The notes beneath the pieces are model-generated. The model did no database searches. It saw nothing but the letters and a program-made list of their open reading frames with translations, and had not been told where the DNA came from. From Malassezia japonica (lineage: Eukaryota; Basidiomycota; Malasseziomycetes; Malasseziales; Malasseziaceae), in assembly GCF_029542785.1 (NCBI RefSeq), contig NC_083371.1:62001-126000 (forward strand): a stretch of 64,000 bases of DNA. Reading direction: 5' to 3'. This document shows positions 52,976 to 57,403 of the stretch, piece after piece (position 1 is the stretch's first letter; the number at the start of each line of letters is the position of its first letter). Both the position numbers and the translations under genes were made by a program.

Positions 52976-55527
52976 ATGCCGTCGAGCGGCGCGGGGGCCG
53001 ATGCGGCGCTCTCGCCGAGCCATCCGGTGAACCTGCGCAAGCAGGTGCGCTTGCAGCTCGATCCATCCTTCTCTGTGAAAAGCTATATTGGCGCCGCGGC
53101 GACGCTCCTGGAAAAGGCGCAGATGGCCGACGCCCAGGGCAACCTCGAGTCGGCGTTTGTGCACTATTTGACGACAGCGAGGTAGGTACCCGTGCTAAGA
53201 CAGTGTCGCATCCTTCGTGCCAAAGCATACCGAATGGGCCGAGGTGAAGCAGCAGCGCGGCGCGACGTTTGTCGCCTACCAGGAGCTGATGAATGTAGGT
53301 CGAGTGGCTAATGCAGCGCACGCCCGAGATTGTGCGCCGGTCGCAGGCGATCGAGGCGGAGCTCAAGGCGCGCGAGGAGCGCGTGCCGTCGCCGGACTCG
53401 GACACGGACGAGCTCGCGCGCAAGTTTGCCGCACTCAAGAACGACGGGGATAGCCGGGGCGGCAGTCCTCAGAAAGACGCACCGAGCCACTCGAGCAGCC
53501 CCGTGCGGCCGCTGCCGACGCCCCGCGACGAGAGCGCACGCCTCTCGCCGCAGCGCCCGTCGTCGACGCACAAGACGTCGCCACCGGCGGTTCCGCCGAG
53601 CCTCGCGCCCAGTGTGGCGCCCACGCCGGCGGCCTCGGGAAGCACGCCGAGCCCCCCGCCGATGGCGCCAGGCGCGGTGCCGGGCGGCGCGTGCCTCCCG
53701 GTCGACGAGCTGTGGACATTCATGTTTCCCGGTTTTGACCGCACCACGGATGCGAGCGGGCGCGAAGTGCTGTCAAAGCGCCCCGGCCTGCGCATTCTGC
53801 TGCTCGATGTACGCCCCCGGCCTGTGCACGATGCCGGCCACCTGCGCGGGGCCGACTGCGTGTGCATCGACCCCGCGTGGCTGCGCACGCCACCGGTCTC
53901 GACGATGGAGCTCGAAGAGGAGCTCGAGCGTGTGTCGAGCGCCGAGGCCGTGCGCTTTGCGCAGCGTGCCTCGTACGATTTGCTGGTCATTTACGACGAA
54001 AACACGCGTGCGTTTGGCGCCGCTGGCCTGCATACGCCCGAGCAAGCGTTGATCGATGCGCTGGTGCGTGCGATCCGCCCGGATCTTGACAATGCGCCTG
54101 CGCTGCTGCGCGGCGGCTTTTCGTCGTGGTCGCGGGCGGTGGGCGATGCGGGCGTCATCGCGACGCCGGGCGTGCAGCACGACACGCTCCAGGCCGTGAA
54201 GCAGTCGCGCGTCGAGGGGTACCGCGTGCCGTCGAGCGATATCAGCAAGCCGCCGCGCGCGTACCACAGCCCGTCGAGCCGCGACATTCCTCCGTCGCTC
54301 CTCTCGGGCGGTGCCGCGCAGCGTGCGAGCGAGCGGAGCATGCTTGCGCCGCCGCCGCCCGCTGCGCCGCCCGCCGGGAGCGTGCACCGGATGCAAGCGG
54401 CGCCGGTGCGCCCGCGCGAGGTGCGTGTGCCGGACGTGCGTGTCGGGATGAGCGGCCTGCGCAACTTTGGCAATACGTGCTACATGAACGCGACGCTGCA
54501 GTGTCTTTCTGCGACTGTGCTCCTGTCGCGCTACATGCTCGACGGGACCTTTAAGAAGGCGATCAACTTGCAGAACCCGCTCGGGACGCGCGGCGCGCTT
54601 GCCGAGGCCTTTGCGCAGCTGCTGCGTGTGATGTGGTCGCAGCAGTACGCCTCGCTCTCGCCGAACTCGTTCCGCAGCCAGATTGCCAAGTTTGCGCCGG
54701 CCTTTGGGTCGAACGAGCAGCAAGACAGCCAGGAGTTTCTCACGTTCCTGCTCGACGGTCTGCACGAGGACCTGAACCTCGTGCAGCAGCGCCCCCCCGC
54801 GATCGAGCTTGGCGAGGCGCAGCAGGCCGAGCTCGACCGCCTCCCGCCGCAGCTCGCGAGCGTTGCGGAATGGAGCATGTACCGCCGGCGCAACGATAGC
54901 GTGATTGTCGACGCATTCCAAGGGCAGTTGCGCAATCACCTGCAGTGCCTGACGTGCGGCAAGACGTCGACGACCTACAATGCCTTCCTCTCGCTCTCGC
55001 TCCCGGTGGCGCACGGGCGGGGCGTGCACAGCACGACGCTGATGCAGTGTCTCGACGCGTTTGTGCGTGAAGAGGTGCTGGATAAGAGCAATGCGTGGAA
55101 CTGCCCGCGCTGCAAGAAGCCGCGGCGGGCGACCAAGAAGCTGAGCCTGTCACGCCTGCCGCCGATCCTCGTGGTGCACCTGAAGCGCTTCACCTACAAG
55201 GGCCCGGTCACGAACAAGATCAGCACGCCGGTGCACTTTCCCACCACCGGGCTGGATTTGTCCAACTACATGCCGCCGCCGCTGCCCCCGGGGACCTCTG
55301 CGCAGGGGATTCCTGCAAGCGAGAGCCAGCGCCCACCCTACCTGTACGATTTATACGCGGTGACGCACCACTTTGGGTCGCTCACGTCCGGGCACTACAC
55401 CGCCTCGATAAAAAACCAGAGCGCATGGCAGTACTGCGACGACTCGCGCATCGCCCCCGGCGACCCCAACCAGCTCCAGAGCGCCTCTCCCTACGTGCTC
55501 TTTTTCCGGCGGCGGCCGCGTTCATAG
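52976..55527 (+). CDS. ubiquitin-specific protease with rhodanese domain (Doa4/Ubp5/USP8 type)
   Basis: Three exons (52976-53181, 53204-53294, 53317-55527; two 22-nt introns) give 835 residues. The N-terminal helical region, rebuilt by splicing, resembles the USP8 dimerisation/MIT-like domain. A rhodanese-like domain follows (ILLLDVRPRPVHDAGHLRGA). The USP catalytic core has the Cys box GLRNFGNTCYMNATLQCL (~Cys487), a zinc-type pair CPRCKKPRRA with an upstream LTCGK, and the His box HHFGSLTSGHYTA (~His792). The order matches yeast Doa4/Ubp5, which deubiquitinate endosomal cargo before ESCRT-III sorting. A Pro/Ser-rich linker may hold Bro1 and kinase sites. The stop is followed after 15 bp by the COX16-ERV1 gene. 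Confidence 0.88.
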
Positions 55528-55542
55528 CTGACTAAGCCAACC

Positions 55543-56490
55543 ATGTTCTCCGCGTTTCGTGCGGCGCCAGGGTCGTGGCGTGCGCGCGTACACGGCGCGT
55601 TCATGGCGCGGGTGCGCCGCAACCCGACGCTCTTTTTCGGGGTGCCGTTTATCGGCTCGATTGTCTTTGCCTCGTTTGCGCTGACGAGCCTCACGCAGAT
55701 CCGCTACATCCAGCACGAGCAACGCCACAAGACGCTCTCCCAGGAAGAAAACCTGAAACTCAAGAGCGACCGCAAGCCCCTCGATATCCGCGAAGAGTAC
55801 TTTAAGCTCCAGGCGAAAGACGACGGTCTGGACGACTGGGAGCCGAAGCGCGTCGCGCGCCCGGCCGGCATGCCGGAGTGGGGCGGCGTGCCGCAGCCCG
55901 CCGCACCGGGCAAGGAGGCGGTCGCGGCCGACACATCGCAGCACTCGGGCTCGTCGTTCTTTGCGCGCCGCGTCGCACACGCAGAAGAGGCGCACGAAGC
56001 GGACACGACGCCGGCGCCGCCGGCGCGGCGGCCGCCGACCGTCCTCGGGCCGGACGGCAAACCGTGCCGCGCGTGCAATGCGCGCACGGCCTTTGGCGCC
56101 GCGATGCGCACGCAGGCCAAGAAGCACGACGCGTGCCCCCCGGACATTGAGGAGCTCGGACGGAGTACATGGACGTTTTTACATAGCGCCGCGGCGCACT
56201 ATCCAGACGAGCCGAGCGACGTGCAGCGCACGCACATGCGCTCGGTGCTCGAGGCGCTGCCGCACGTCTATCCCTGCGCGACCTGCGCCGCGGAGCTCCA
56301 CGAAGAGTACGGCCGCCAGGCGCCGGAGGCGCGTGCAGATGCAGTGGACAGCGCAACGGCGCTGCAGGTATATGTCTGCACGCTGCACAACGAGGTGAAT
56401 GCGCGCCTCGGGAAGAAGGTATGGGACTGCAGCGACCTGAAGCGCTTGCGCCACCGTTGGTACGAGCCACCAGAGGATAGGGAATGCTAA
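55543..56490 (+). CDS. COX16-ERV1 fusion protein
   Basis: One uninterrupted 315-residue frame contains two known proteins. Residues ~27-114 are Cox16, the inner-membrane assembly factor of cytochrome oxidase: RRNPTLFFGVPFIGSI with a single membrane helix, RYIQHEQRHKTLSQEE, and LDIREEYFKLQ. After a ~60-residue linker come the Erv1/ALR sulfhydryl oxidase parts: shuttle pair CRAC (175-178), GRSTWTFLHSAAAHYPD, the active site YPCATC (Cys245, Cys248) by the FAD, HNEVNARLGKKVWDC (282-296), and structural cysteines 279 and 296, spaced as in yeast Erv1. Erv1 reoxidises Mia40 in the intermembrane space. The fusion would anchor it in the inner membrane. Confidence 0.88.
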   Translation: MFSAFRAAPGSWRARVHGAFMARVRRNPTLFFGVPFIGSIVFASFALTSLTQIRYIQHEQRHKTLSQEENLKLKSDRKPLDIREEYFKLQAKDDGLDDWEPKRVARPAGMPEWGGVPQPAAPGKEAVAADTSQHSGSSFFARRVAHAEEAHEADTTPAPPARRPPTVLGPDGKPCRACNARTAFGAAMRTQAKKHDACPPDIEELGRSTWTFLHSAAAHYPDEPSDVQRTHMRSVLEALPHVYPCATCAAELHEEYGRQAPEARADAVDSATALQVYVCTLHNEVNARLGKKVWDCSDLKRLRHRWYEPPEDREC

Positions 56491-56493
56491 GAG

Positions 56494-57403
56494 CTAGTTG
56501 GGCGCAGCATCGTAGGAACGAGGGGCACGGCTGGGCGACGTGGCGCGGGGGCGGTCGTCGCGGCGGTCGTCGCGGGGGCGGTCGCGGTCGTAGCCGCGGT
56601 CGTAGCCGCGGTCGCGGCCGCCACGGAAACCGCCGCGGGCGTCACGGCCGTCGCGGCTGTCGCGGCTGTCGCGGCCGTCGCGCTTCGGGGGGCCCAGGTA
56701 CTGGCCCGGCGTCGGCGCACGCGCACGCGCACGGCGCGCGACCTGCACGGTAATCGCACGGCCCAACAGCTCGCGCCCGTTCAGCTCCTCGACGGCCTTG
56801 GCTGCATCGTCGACCTGCTCAAACGTCACGAACCCGAATCCACGCGCCTCTTTTGTGTGGGGATCGCGCATGACCTGCGCCTTGATCAGCGCACCGTACG
56901 GCGCAAAGAGCTCCTCAAGGTCCGCATCCTGCGTCTCGCGAGCAAGCGAGGAAATGTGCAGGTTGTTGCCGGGGTTGCCGCCCTCGTTGTCGTCGTCGCT
57001 GCGTCAGGGAAAGCACGTACCGGCGGGGTCCGTCGCGGCGGAAATCGCGGCGCTCGCGGCGGTAGCCGTCGCGGTCGTCGCGGCGGTCGTCACGACGGTC
57101 GTCACGATAGTCGCGGCGGTCGTCGCGGTCGTCGCGGCGGTCATAGTCGCGGCGGTCATAGTCGCGGCGGCGGTCGTTCGGGCGGTAGCTGTCGCGGCGG
57201 TCGTCCCGGCGGTCGTCCCGGCGGTAATTGGGGCGGTAGCTGTCGCGGCGGTCGTCCCGGCGGTCGTCACGACGGTCGTCGCGTTCTCCACGCTCTCCAC
57301 GCTCCTCGCGCTCCTCGCGCTCGGGTGCAACATCAATGCGCTCCTGCTCCATGCGCTCGCCCTCTACGTCGTGCGCTTCCGTCTCGTTGTTCCACTCTGC
57401 CAT
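56494..57403 (-). CDS. SR-like RNA-binding protein with one RRM
   Basis: Two exons on the minus strand (57021-57403, 56494-56998; 22-nt intron) give 295 residues. The N-terminal ~125 residues are almost only Arg, Asp, Glu and Tyr (repeats such as DDRRDDRRD), encoded by 12-bp-type repeats. The RRM follows: NLHISSLARE (RNP2) and ARGFGFVTF (RNP1), most like the Tra2/SR class. A C-terminal Gly/Arg/Asp tail (RGGFRGGRDRGYDRGYDRD) ends in PRSYDAAPN. It is likely nuclear and acts in splicing or mRNA export; the RD-rich arms would promote condensation. With such tiny introns in the genome, splicing factors like this are of interest. A CACGTG box (57453-57458) lies 50 bp upstream. Confidence 0.8.

Follow-up and report, generated by a model that had tools for sequence, protein, structure and literature searches.

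A COX16-ERV1 gene fusion in Malassezia japonica and across Ustilaginomycotina, with a possible membrane-tethered sulfhydryl oxidase as its product

In a 64,000-nucleotide stretch of Malassezia japonica DNA (the window; NCBI RefSeq assembly GCF_029542785.1, contig NC_083371.1, positions 62,001 to 126,000 of the forward strand), one open frame encodes both Cox16, an assembly factor of complex IV, and Erv1, the sulfhydryl oxidase of the Mia40 relay. This arrangement raises the question of whether the two proteins are indeed joined in a single gene, how widespread and how old such a gene could be, and whether its product works as one membrane-anchored chain or is separated into its two parts.

A sequence-only reading of the window had described one uninterrupted frame that joins a complete Cox16 to a full Erv1, and this description is borne out. 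From the ATG at 55543 to the TAA ending at 56490, the frame comprises 315 codons without an internal stop, and both Pfam models are covered at or near full length: PF14138 with 92 bits against a cut-off of 27 (model positions 1-79 of 79) and PF04777 with 86.3 bits against 27.6 (model positions 1-92 of 93). The CRAC, YPCATC and HNEVN motifs and the two structural cysteines named in the same reading were all located; in an alignment of 25 of the 52 fusion proteins found (see below), all eight cysteines of the protein are invariant, including C198 and C315. One fusion outside the alignment, P0048, has a gene model that lacks the YPCxxC stretch. Another cysteine count (48/48) was set aside because its rows were partly chosen by the same motifs and include the one-domain proteins P0015 and P0070. 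The hydropathy profile contains one membrane helix near the N-terminus, with the strongest peak over residues 29-48 and a maximum of 0.83 beyond residue 60. The first 30 residues include six lysines and arginines and no aspartate or glutamate, a composition that fits a matrix-side N-terminus. The features are collected in Table 1.

Table 1. Features of the fusion gene and its predicted product (positions in the window; aa, residues of the protein)
Feature	Position	Strand	Description
COX16-ERV1 fusion gene	55543..56490	+	one open frame, 315 aa, 35.2 kDa, intronless
Basic N-terminus	55543..55626	+	aa 1-28
Transmembrane helix core	55627..55686	+	aa 29-48, hydropathy peak 1.99
COX16 domain PF14138	55630..55869	+	aa 30-109, full model length (Pfam)
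Linker	55870..56046	+	aa 110-168, Pro/Ala/Glu-rich
Linker stretch FFARRVAHAEE	55957..55989	+	aa 139-149; many fusions have related forms; degenerate in M. japonica
Erv1 part	56047..56487	+	aa 169-315
Shuttle pair C175/C178 (CRAC)	56065..56076	+	KPCRAC from aa 173
C198 of CPPD	56134..56136	+	aligned with the CPPD/CPQD Cys of ALR
PF04777 (Evr1_Alr) core	56161-56460	+	aa 207-306 (Pfam)
FAD-proximal active site YPCATC, C245/C248	56269..56286	+	motif from aa 243
Structural pair C279/C296, HNEVN between	56377..56430	+	HNEVN from aa 282
C-terminal C315	56485..56487	+	invariant in 25/25 aligned fusions

The gene lies in crowded surroundings. Upstream, at 53311-55527 on the forward strand, is a ubiquitin carboxyl-terminal hydrolase gene with a rhodanese-like stretch slightly below the Pfam cut-off; its stop lies 15 bases before the fusion ATG, so that the promoter of the fusion probably overlaps the hydrolase gene. 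Downstream, an open frame on the reverse strand (56494-56871) has RRM-like and RGG-rich sequence, as judged by eye; because it ends 3 bases past the fusion stop, the 3' ends of the two genes probably overlap, tail to tail.

Database searches with the whole fusion protein yielded 116 proteins at E<=0.001, 42 of which contain both Pfam domains. When the COX16 part of the Thecaphora protein was used as query against proteins of similar length, 34 of the 42 matches were two-domain proteins, 10 of them new. The databases thus contain 52 distinct two-domain proteins, including that of M. japonica itself (P0001), from species that partly overlap. An organism name is shown for 30 of the 52, and all 30 belong to Ustilaginomycotina, a placement made by taxonomy look-up for eleven taxa (all in Malasseziomycetes, Ustilaginomycetes or Exobasidiomycetes) and from general knowledge for the others, which we take to belong to the same subphylum. 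The named fusions come from Malassezia (three species), Thecaphora, Moesziomyces, Sporisorium, Ustilago, Testicularia, Melanopsichium, Pseudozyma, Violaceomyces, Tilletia, Tilletiaria, Exobasidium, Meira, Ceraceosorus, Tilletiopsis, Jaminaea, Parajaminaea and Microstroma. Among the database matches there is no named fusion from Moniliellomycetes or Peribolosporomycetes, the genera being placed partly from general knowledge. The earlier reading had pointed to other Malassezia and Ustilaginomycotina genomes as the place to look for the same fusion, and there it was found; the named fusions span three Malassezia species and many other genera. As judged from these sequences, the fusion is spread over three classes of Ustilaginomycotina and is no peculiarity of Malassezia.

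Stand-alone COX16 has a different distribution. A COX16-profile search gave 975 matches of stand-alone length, and among the named entries of the best 120 of these there is none from Ustilaginomycotina; those named presumably all belong to Agaricomycotina (with Tremellomycetes and Dacrymycetes) and Pucciniomycotina. Several unnamed one-domain matches represent single exons of fusions: the members of the pairs P0062/P0228, P0069/P0150 and P0070/P0206 have contigs of equal length, and the COX16 pieces run into intron sequence. A record from the fern Adiantum nelumboides (P0064) contains what appears to be exon 2 of a smut-type fusion; by eye it resembles the Meira protein closely, and it is probably a fungal contamination of the fern assembly.

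The history of the fusion was approached through a COX16 tree built from 24 of the 52 fusions and 29 of the 120 listed stand-alone proteins, all picked by hand. In this unrooted tree, derived from a short alignment of 115 columns, the fusions and the stand-alone proteins fall on opposite sides of one branch, with an SH-aLRT value of 97 and an ultrafast bootstrap value of 92, the latter below the mark of 95 set by the tree program; the branch is present in 94% of 200 bootstrap trees. A single branch that separates fusions from stand-alone COX16s fits a single old fusion event without proving it, and from these sequences we infer one ancestral fusion in Ustilaginomycotina. In some relatives, the database pieces that run into intron sequence place an intron behind the EEYF codons of COX16, with the last part of COX16 and the entire ERV1 jointly downstream of it. 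P0250, a stand-alone COX16 piece that looks Agaricomycete, has an intron at the same spot, so that the fusion seems to have kept the old structure of the COX16 gene. Taken as a whole, this is a real, lineage-wide fusion of two known families, and it is probably old.

The sequence-only reading had named separate intact copies of COX16 or ERV1 elsewhere in the genome as the observation that would speak against it. An exon-wise six-frame search of the whole genome (8.43 Mb, nine contigs) detected no second COX16 at E<=1, the fusion gene being the sole match. The same type of search found two Erv domains, one in the fusion and the other in a gene on contig C6, which outscores the fusion on PF04777 (124.7 against 88.8 bits in the genome search). 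The C6 gene encodes a hydrophobic N-terminal stretch and a CGC behind the domain, and no CRAC-type shuttle precedes the domain in the frames inspected. Chiefly from these cysteines, it looks Erv2-type; we therefore rejected it as a separate Erv1, although among its best solved relatives the Erv1-labelled structure 2hj3 (1.8e-30) scores nearly as well as Erv2 (2.1e-31). With the C6 gene classified in this way, the fusion remains the sole gene of the Erv1 type and the sole COX16 gene detected in the genome, and no separate intact copy of either emerged. In the Erv2-type locus (L001, G000:C6:432534-435809), the parts encoding the membrane anchor and the catalytic domain are probably separated by an intron.

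The linker that connects the two halves is readable in 71 proteins, exon pieces included, which were thinned to 48. Although these linkers vary widely, many of the 71 contain a short stretch of the form basic-x-[ILV]-x-[A/N/T]-[E/D]. The simpler pattern [ILV]x[AN][ED] was taken from Malassezia linkers; in the thinned set it occurs in 13 of 14 Malassezia-like linkers (a group into which the sorting rule wrongly put Microstroma P0245) and in 23 of the 34 other non-redundant linkers, where shuffled sequences gave a mean of 3.0 and a maximum of 8. By comparison, it is present in 1/47 Erv1 N-termini without a COX16 part (shuffle mean 2.3), a set that includes some fusion pieces, of which the single match, P0066, looks to be one; inheritance of the motif from stand-alone Erv1 is thus unsupported. 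The tails of stand-alone COX16 proteins, which are short, contain it in 6 of 94 cases, above all 500 shuffles (mean 1.2, maximum 5), after 26 of the 120 listed proteins had been dropped (24 without the marker segment and 2 with too short a tail). The motif-bearing tails belong to Kwoniella (P0138, P0152 and P0180), Naganishia (P0162 and P0179) and P0117, the last possibly a piece of a fusion. The motif is strongly enriched in fusions, yet not confined to them, and judging from these tails it may predate the fusion. In M. japonica, the upstream site VAA↓D fits the loose pattern, and residues 139-149 could be a processing or docking site. In two Malassezia-like fusions, P0014 and P0016, the greater part of the linker is missing, and with it the SSFFARR segment common in that group.

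Could the joint be a mere artefact, that is, a misassembly or frameshift that joined two neighbouring genes? The tight spacing of the genes, with 15 bases upstream and 3 bases downstream to the adjacent open frames, might suggest so. A stop codon or assembly error in the linker, a concern of the sequence-only reading, was looked for, but the linker is open and appears to be coding as well, given that its GC3 is 0.88 beside 0.83 in the COX16 part and 0.81 in the Erv1 part; moreover, the same fusion recurs in 51 further database proteins, with organism names for 30 of the 52. These independent records refute the artefact reading, leaving it a negligible chance: the COX16-ERV1 fusion is real, and a chance joining is excluded. 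A second possibility is that one locus gives rise to two products by alternative transcription or internal initiation, so that Erv1 would also be made alone. An Erv1-only chain could begin at M110, which is located between the membrane helix and CRAC, but only 36 of the 71 linkers contain any methionine, so an internal start is not conserved; furthermore, the intron of the relatives lies inside COX16, and the exon after it opens with COX16 codons. Such a dual output appears very improbable to us.

Processing of the protein is the main rival, and a serious one, because composite precursors that are cut after import are known (Arg5,6) or predicted (Rsm22-Cox11), according to passages of PMC8847149. 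Under this scenario, a protease active on the intermembrane space side, such as the inner membrane peptidase, would cleave the fusion precursor within its linker and release a membrane-bound Cox16 and a soluble Erv1, with Cox16 serving as a long sorting signal for Erv1, like the bipartite presequence of cytochrome b2. The enrichment of the linker motif (23/34 linkers against 1/47 Erv1 N-termini) is in line with such a cut. The known Imp1 substrates discussed in part of PMC8835746 share [I/V][H/D/F/M]N↓[D/E], and the exact Imp1-type form, IHNE, occurs in 4 of the 71 linkers, against a shuffle mean of 0.1 and a maximum of 2. The genome contains three S26 peptidase loci, two of which look Imp1-like and Imp2-like (L011 and L012) and the third Sec11-like (L013), all named by eye. 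On the other hand, known nuclear-encoded IMP sites preserve their distance from the membrane span, according to the same part of PMC8835746, and in a scan of ten sequences confined to the region well behind the helix, nine had candidate sites, at 73-110 residues past the helix, and the tenth (P0024) had none. Position -1 of the linker sites is mostly Ala or Thr, not Asn (by eye), and the M. japonica linker is without the exact Imp1 form, its second site, AHA↓E, having Ala at -3. The motif also appears in the 6/94 stand-alone COX16 tails, the linker patterns were chosen after inspection and the shuffles ignore kinship. MPP was set aside as the linker protease because the linker should face the intermembrane space. 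On balance, we consider cleavage unlikely.

The reading we prefer, with moderate confidence, is that of an uncut bifunctional Cox16-Erv1 protein that is anchored through Cox16, tethered in the intermembrane space and derived from a single ancestral fusion. For this protein we infer a single origin, the topology and the route of import, as well as intactness, dimerisation and a functional coupling. An ancestral event in Ustilaginomycotina would have placed ERV1 downstream of COX16, in frame, and M. japonica would have retained no separate COX16 or ERV1. The protein would be imported via TIM23, with the basic N-terminus entering the matrix and the Cox16 helix halting in the inner membrane; stop-transfer proteins leave TIM23 sideways (a passage in PMC12895372). 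The remainder would stay in the intermembrane space, where the C-terminus of human COX16 was located by protease protection and carbonate extraction (part of PMC5809144), and the Erv1 half would be held on a linker of about 60 residues. There it would fold with FAD and dimerise, probably with extra ALR-type inter-subunit disulfides, and reoxidise Mia40 through CRAC and YPCATC, the electrons then passing to cytochrome c and complex IV, as stated for Erv1 in passages of PMC5203823 and PMC12895372. Because its anchor is Cox16, the oxidase would be positioned at the COX2/COX1 assembly sites, near its electron sink and the thiol-dependent copper chaperones; the roles ascribed to COX16 in part of PMC11011759 are assembly of the COX2 copper site and bridging of the COX2 and COX1 modules. 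During import of yeast Erv1, Mia40 recognises its structural disulfide (a passage in PMC5203823); the fused Erv1 would no longer need Mia40 trapping to be retained in the intermembrane space, relying on the TIM23 stop-transfer route instead.

A Mia40 candidate gene on contig C2 encodes a CPC and a twin CX9C motif and matches solved Mia40 structures. Its N-terminal stretch is of moderate hydropathy (peak 1.47), so that both relay partners may be membrane-bound; a replacement of the membrane anchor of Mia40 by the Cox16-Erv1 anchor is unsupported, given that the candidate keeps this stretch. Against the tethered reading, stand-alone Erv1 functions elsewhere without an anchor, and tethering may thus be neutral. 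Linker sequence and length, in the alignment of 25 fusions, are mostly poorly conserved, as expected of a mere spacer, which also counts against a tether. Our more far-reaching proposal is tentative, and we hold it to be possible rather than probable: a permanent tether, subphylum-wide, of the relay oxidase to a complex IV assembly factor would make Erv1 import independent of the relay and would couple Mia40 reoxidation, the thiol chemistry of the COX2 copper site and electron delivery in one disulfide-linked dimer at the inner membrane.

The earlier reading knew of no description of this fusion, and our search of the open-access literature, judged by titles and abstract openings and with subscription journals mostly outside its range, likewise found none. 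Database entries name the fusions sulfhydryl oxidase, FAD-dependent thiol oxidase, related to ERV1 or hypothetical protein; COX16 is never mentioned in the names, partly displayed, of the 30 named fusions, so that COX16 may look missing in these fungi. Two crossed names probably stem from fusions: a Pyrrhoderma noxium protein of 123 aa (P0126) that has only the COX16 domain goes under FAD-dependent thiol oxidase, whereas P0067, a piece with an Erv domain, is entered as cytochrome c oxidase assembly protein subunit 16. The presence of the fusion across the smut lineage suggests that respiratory-chain assembly and disulfide formation may be physically coupled there, and its occurrence in three classes of one subphylum is natural evidence that both proteins can function next to each other. 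The fusion also provides a natural test case for a link between the relay and complex IV and for Mia40-independent sorting of Erv1.

With Cox16 of yeast and COX16 of humans, the fusion shares the full domain, the single membrane helix and the DWEPKR..RP segment; named stand-alone Cox16 proteins among the matches listed are 104-183 aa long, whereas in the fusion a whole enzyme follows. The other half resembles Erv1 and ALR (GFER) in its shuttle CxxC, FAD-proximal CxxC and structural pair, as well as in the CPPD cysteine found in ALR. Comparison of the C-terminal part with solved structures (ALR, 1.6e-24; Erv1, 3.1e-23; Erv2, 2.2e-12) places this oxidase closer to Erv1/ALR than to Erv2, as far as sequence matches indicate. 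Stand-alone Erv1 proteins have short N-termini before the shuttle pair and no COX16 part, whereas the shuttle of the fusion follows a membrane helix. By position, C315 presumably matches the C-terminal cysteine of ALR, and we take C198 and C315 to correspond to the cysteines of its two additional dimer disulfides. Human ALR differs from yeast Erv1 in having two additional disulfides that stabilise the dimer (a passage in PMC12895372). The conserved pairs given for yeast Erv1 in part of PMC5203823, C30/C33, C130/C133 and C159/C176, all have counterparts in the fusion. Erv2, the sulfhydryl oxidase of the ER, has the same catalytic domain, and the genome's own C6 copy is a different gene, which, unlike the fusion, is without CRAC before the domain and has CGC behind it. 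Human SYNJ2BP-COX16 is, we assume, a read-through that contains no oxidase. As in the fusion, COX16 is joined there to another mitochondrial protein (from a title cited in PMC11011759). Arg5,6, Rsm22-Cox11, Etp1 and Atp25 are likewise pairs of mitochondrial proteins encoded by a single frame; according to the part of PMC8847149 that deals with them, MPP has been shown to cut Arg5,6 internally, and such cutting is predicted for the other three. Unlike in these composite precursors, the joint of the Cox16-Erv1 fusion should face the intermembrane space.
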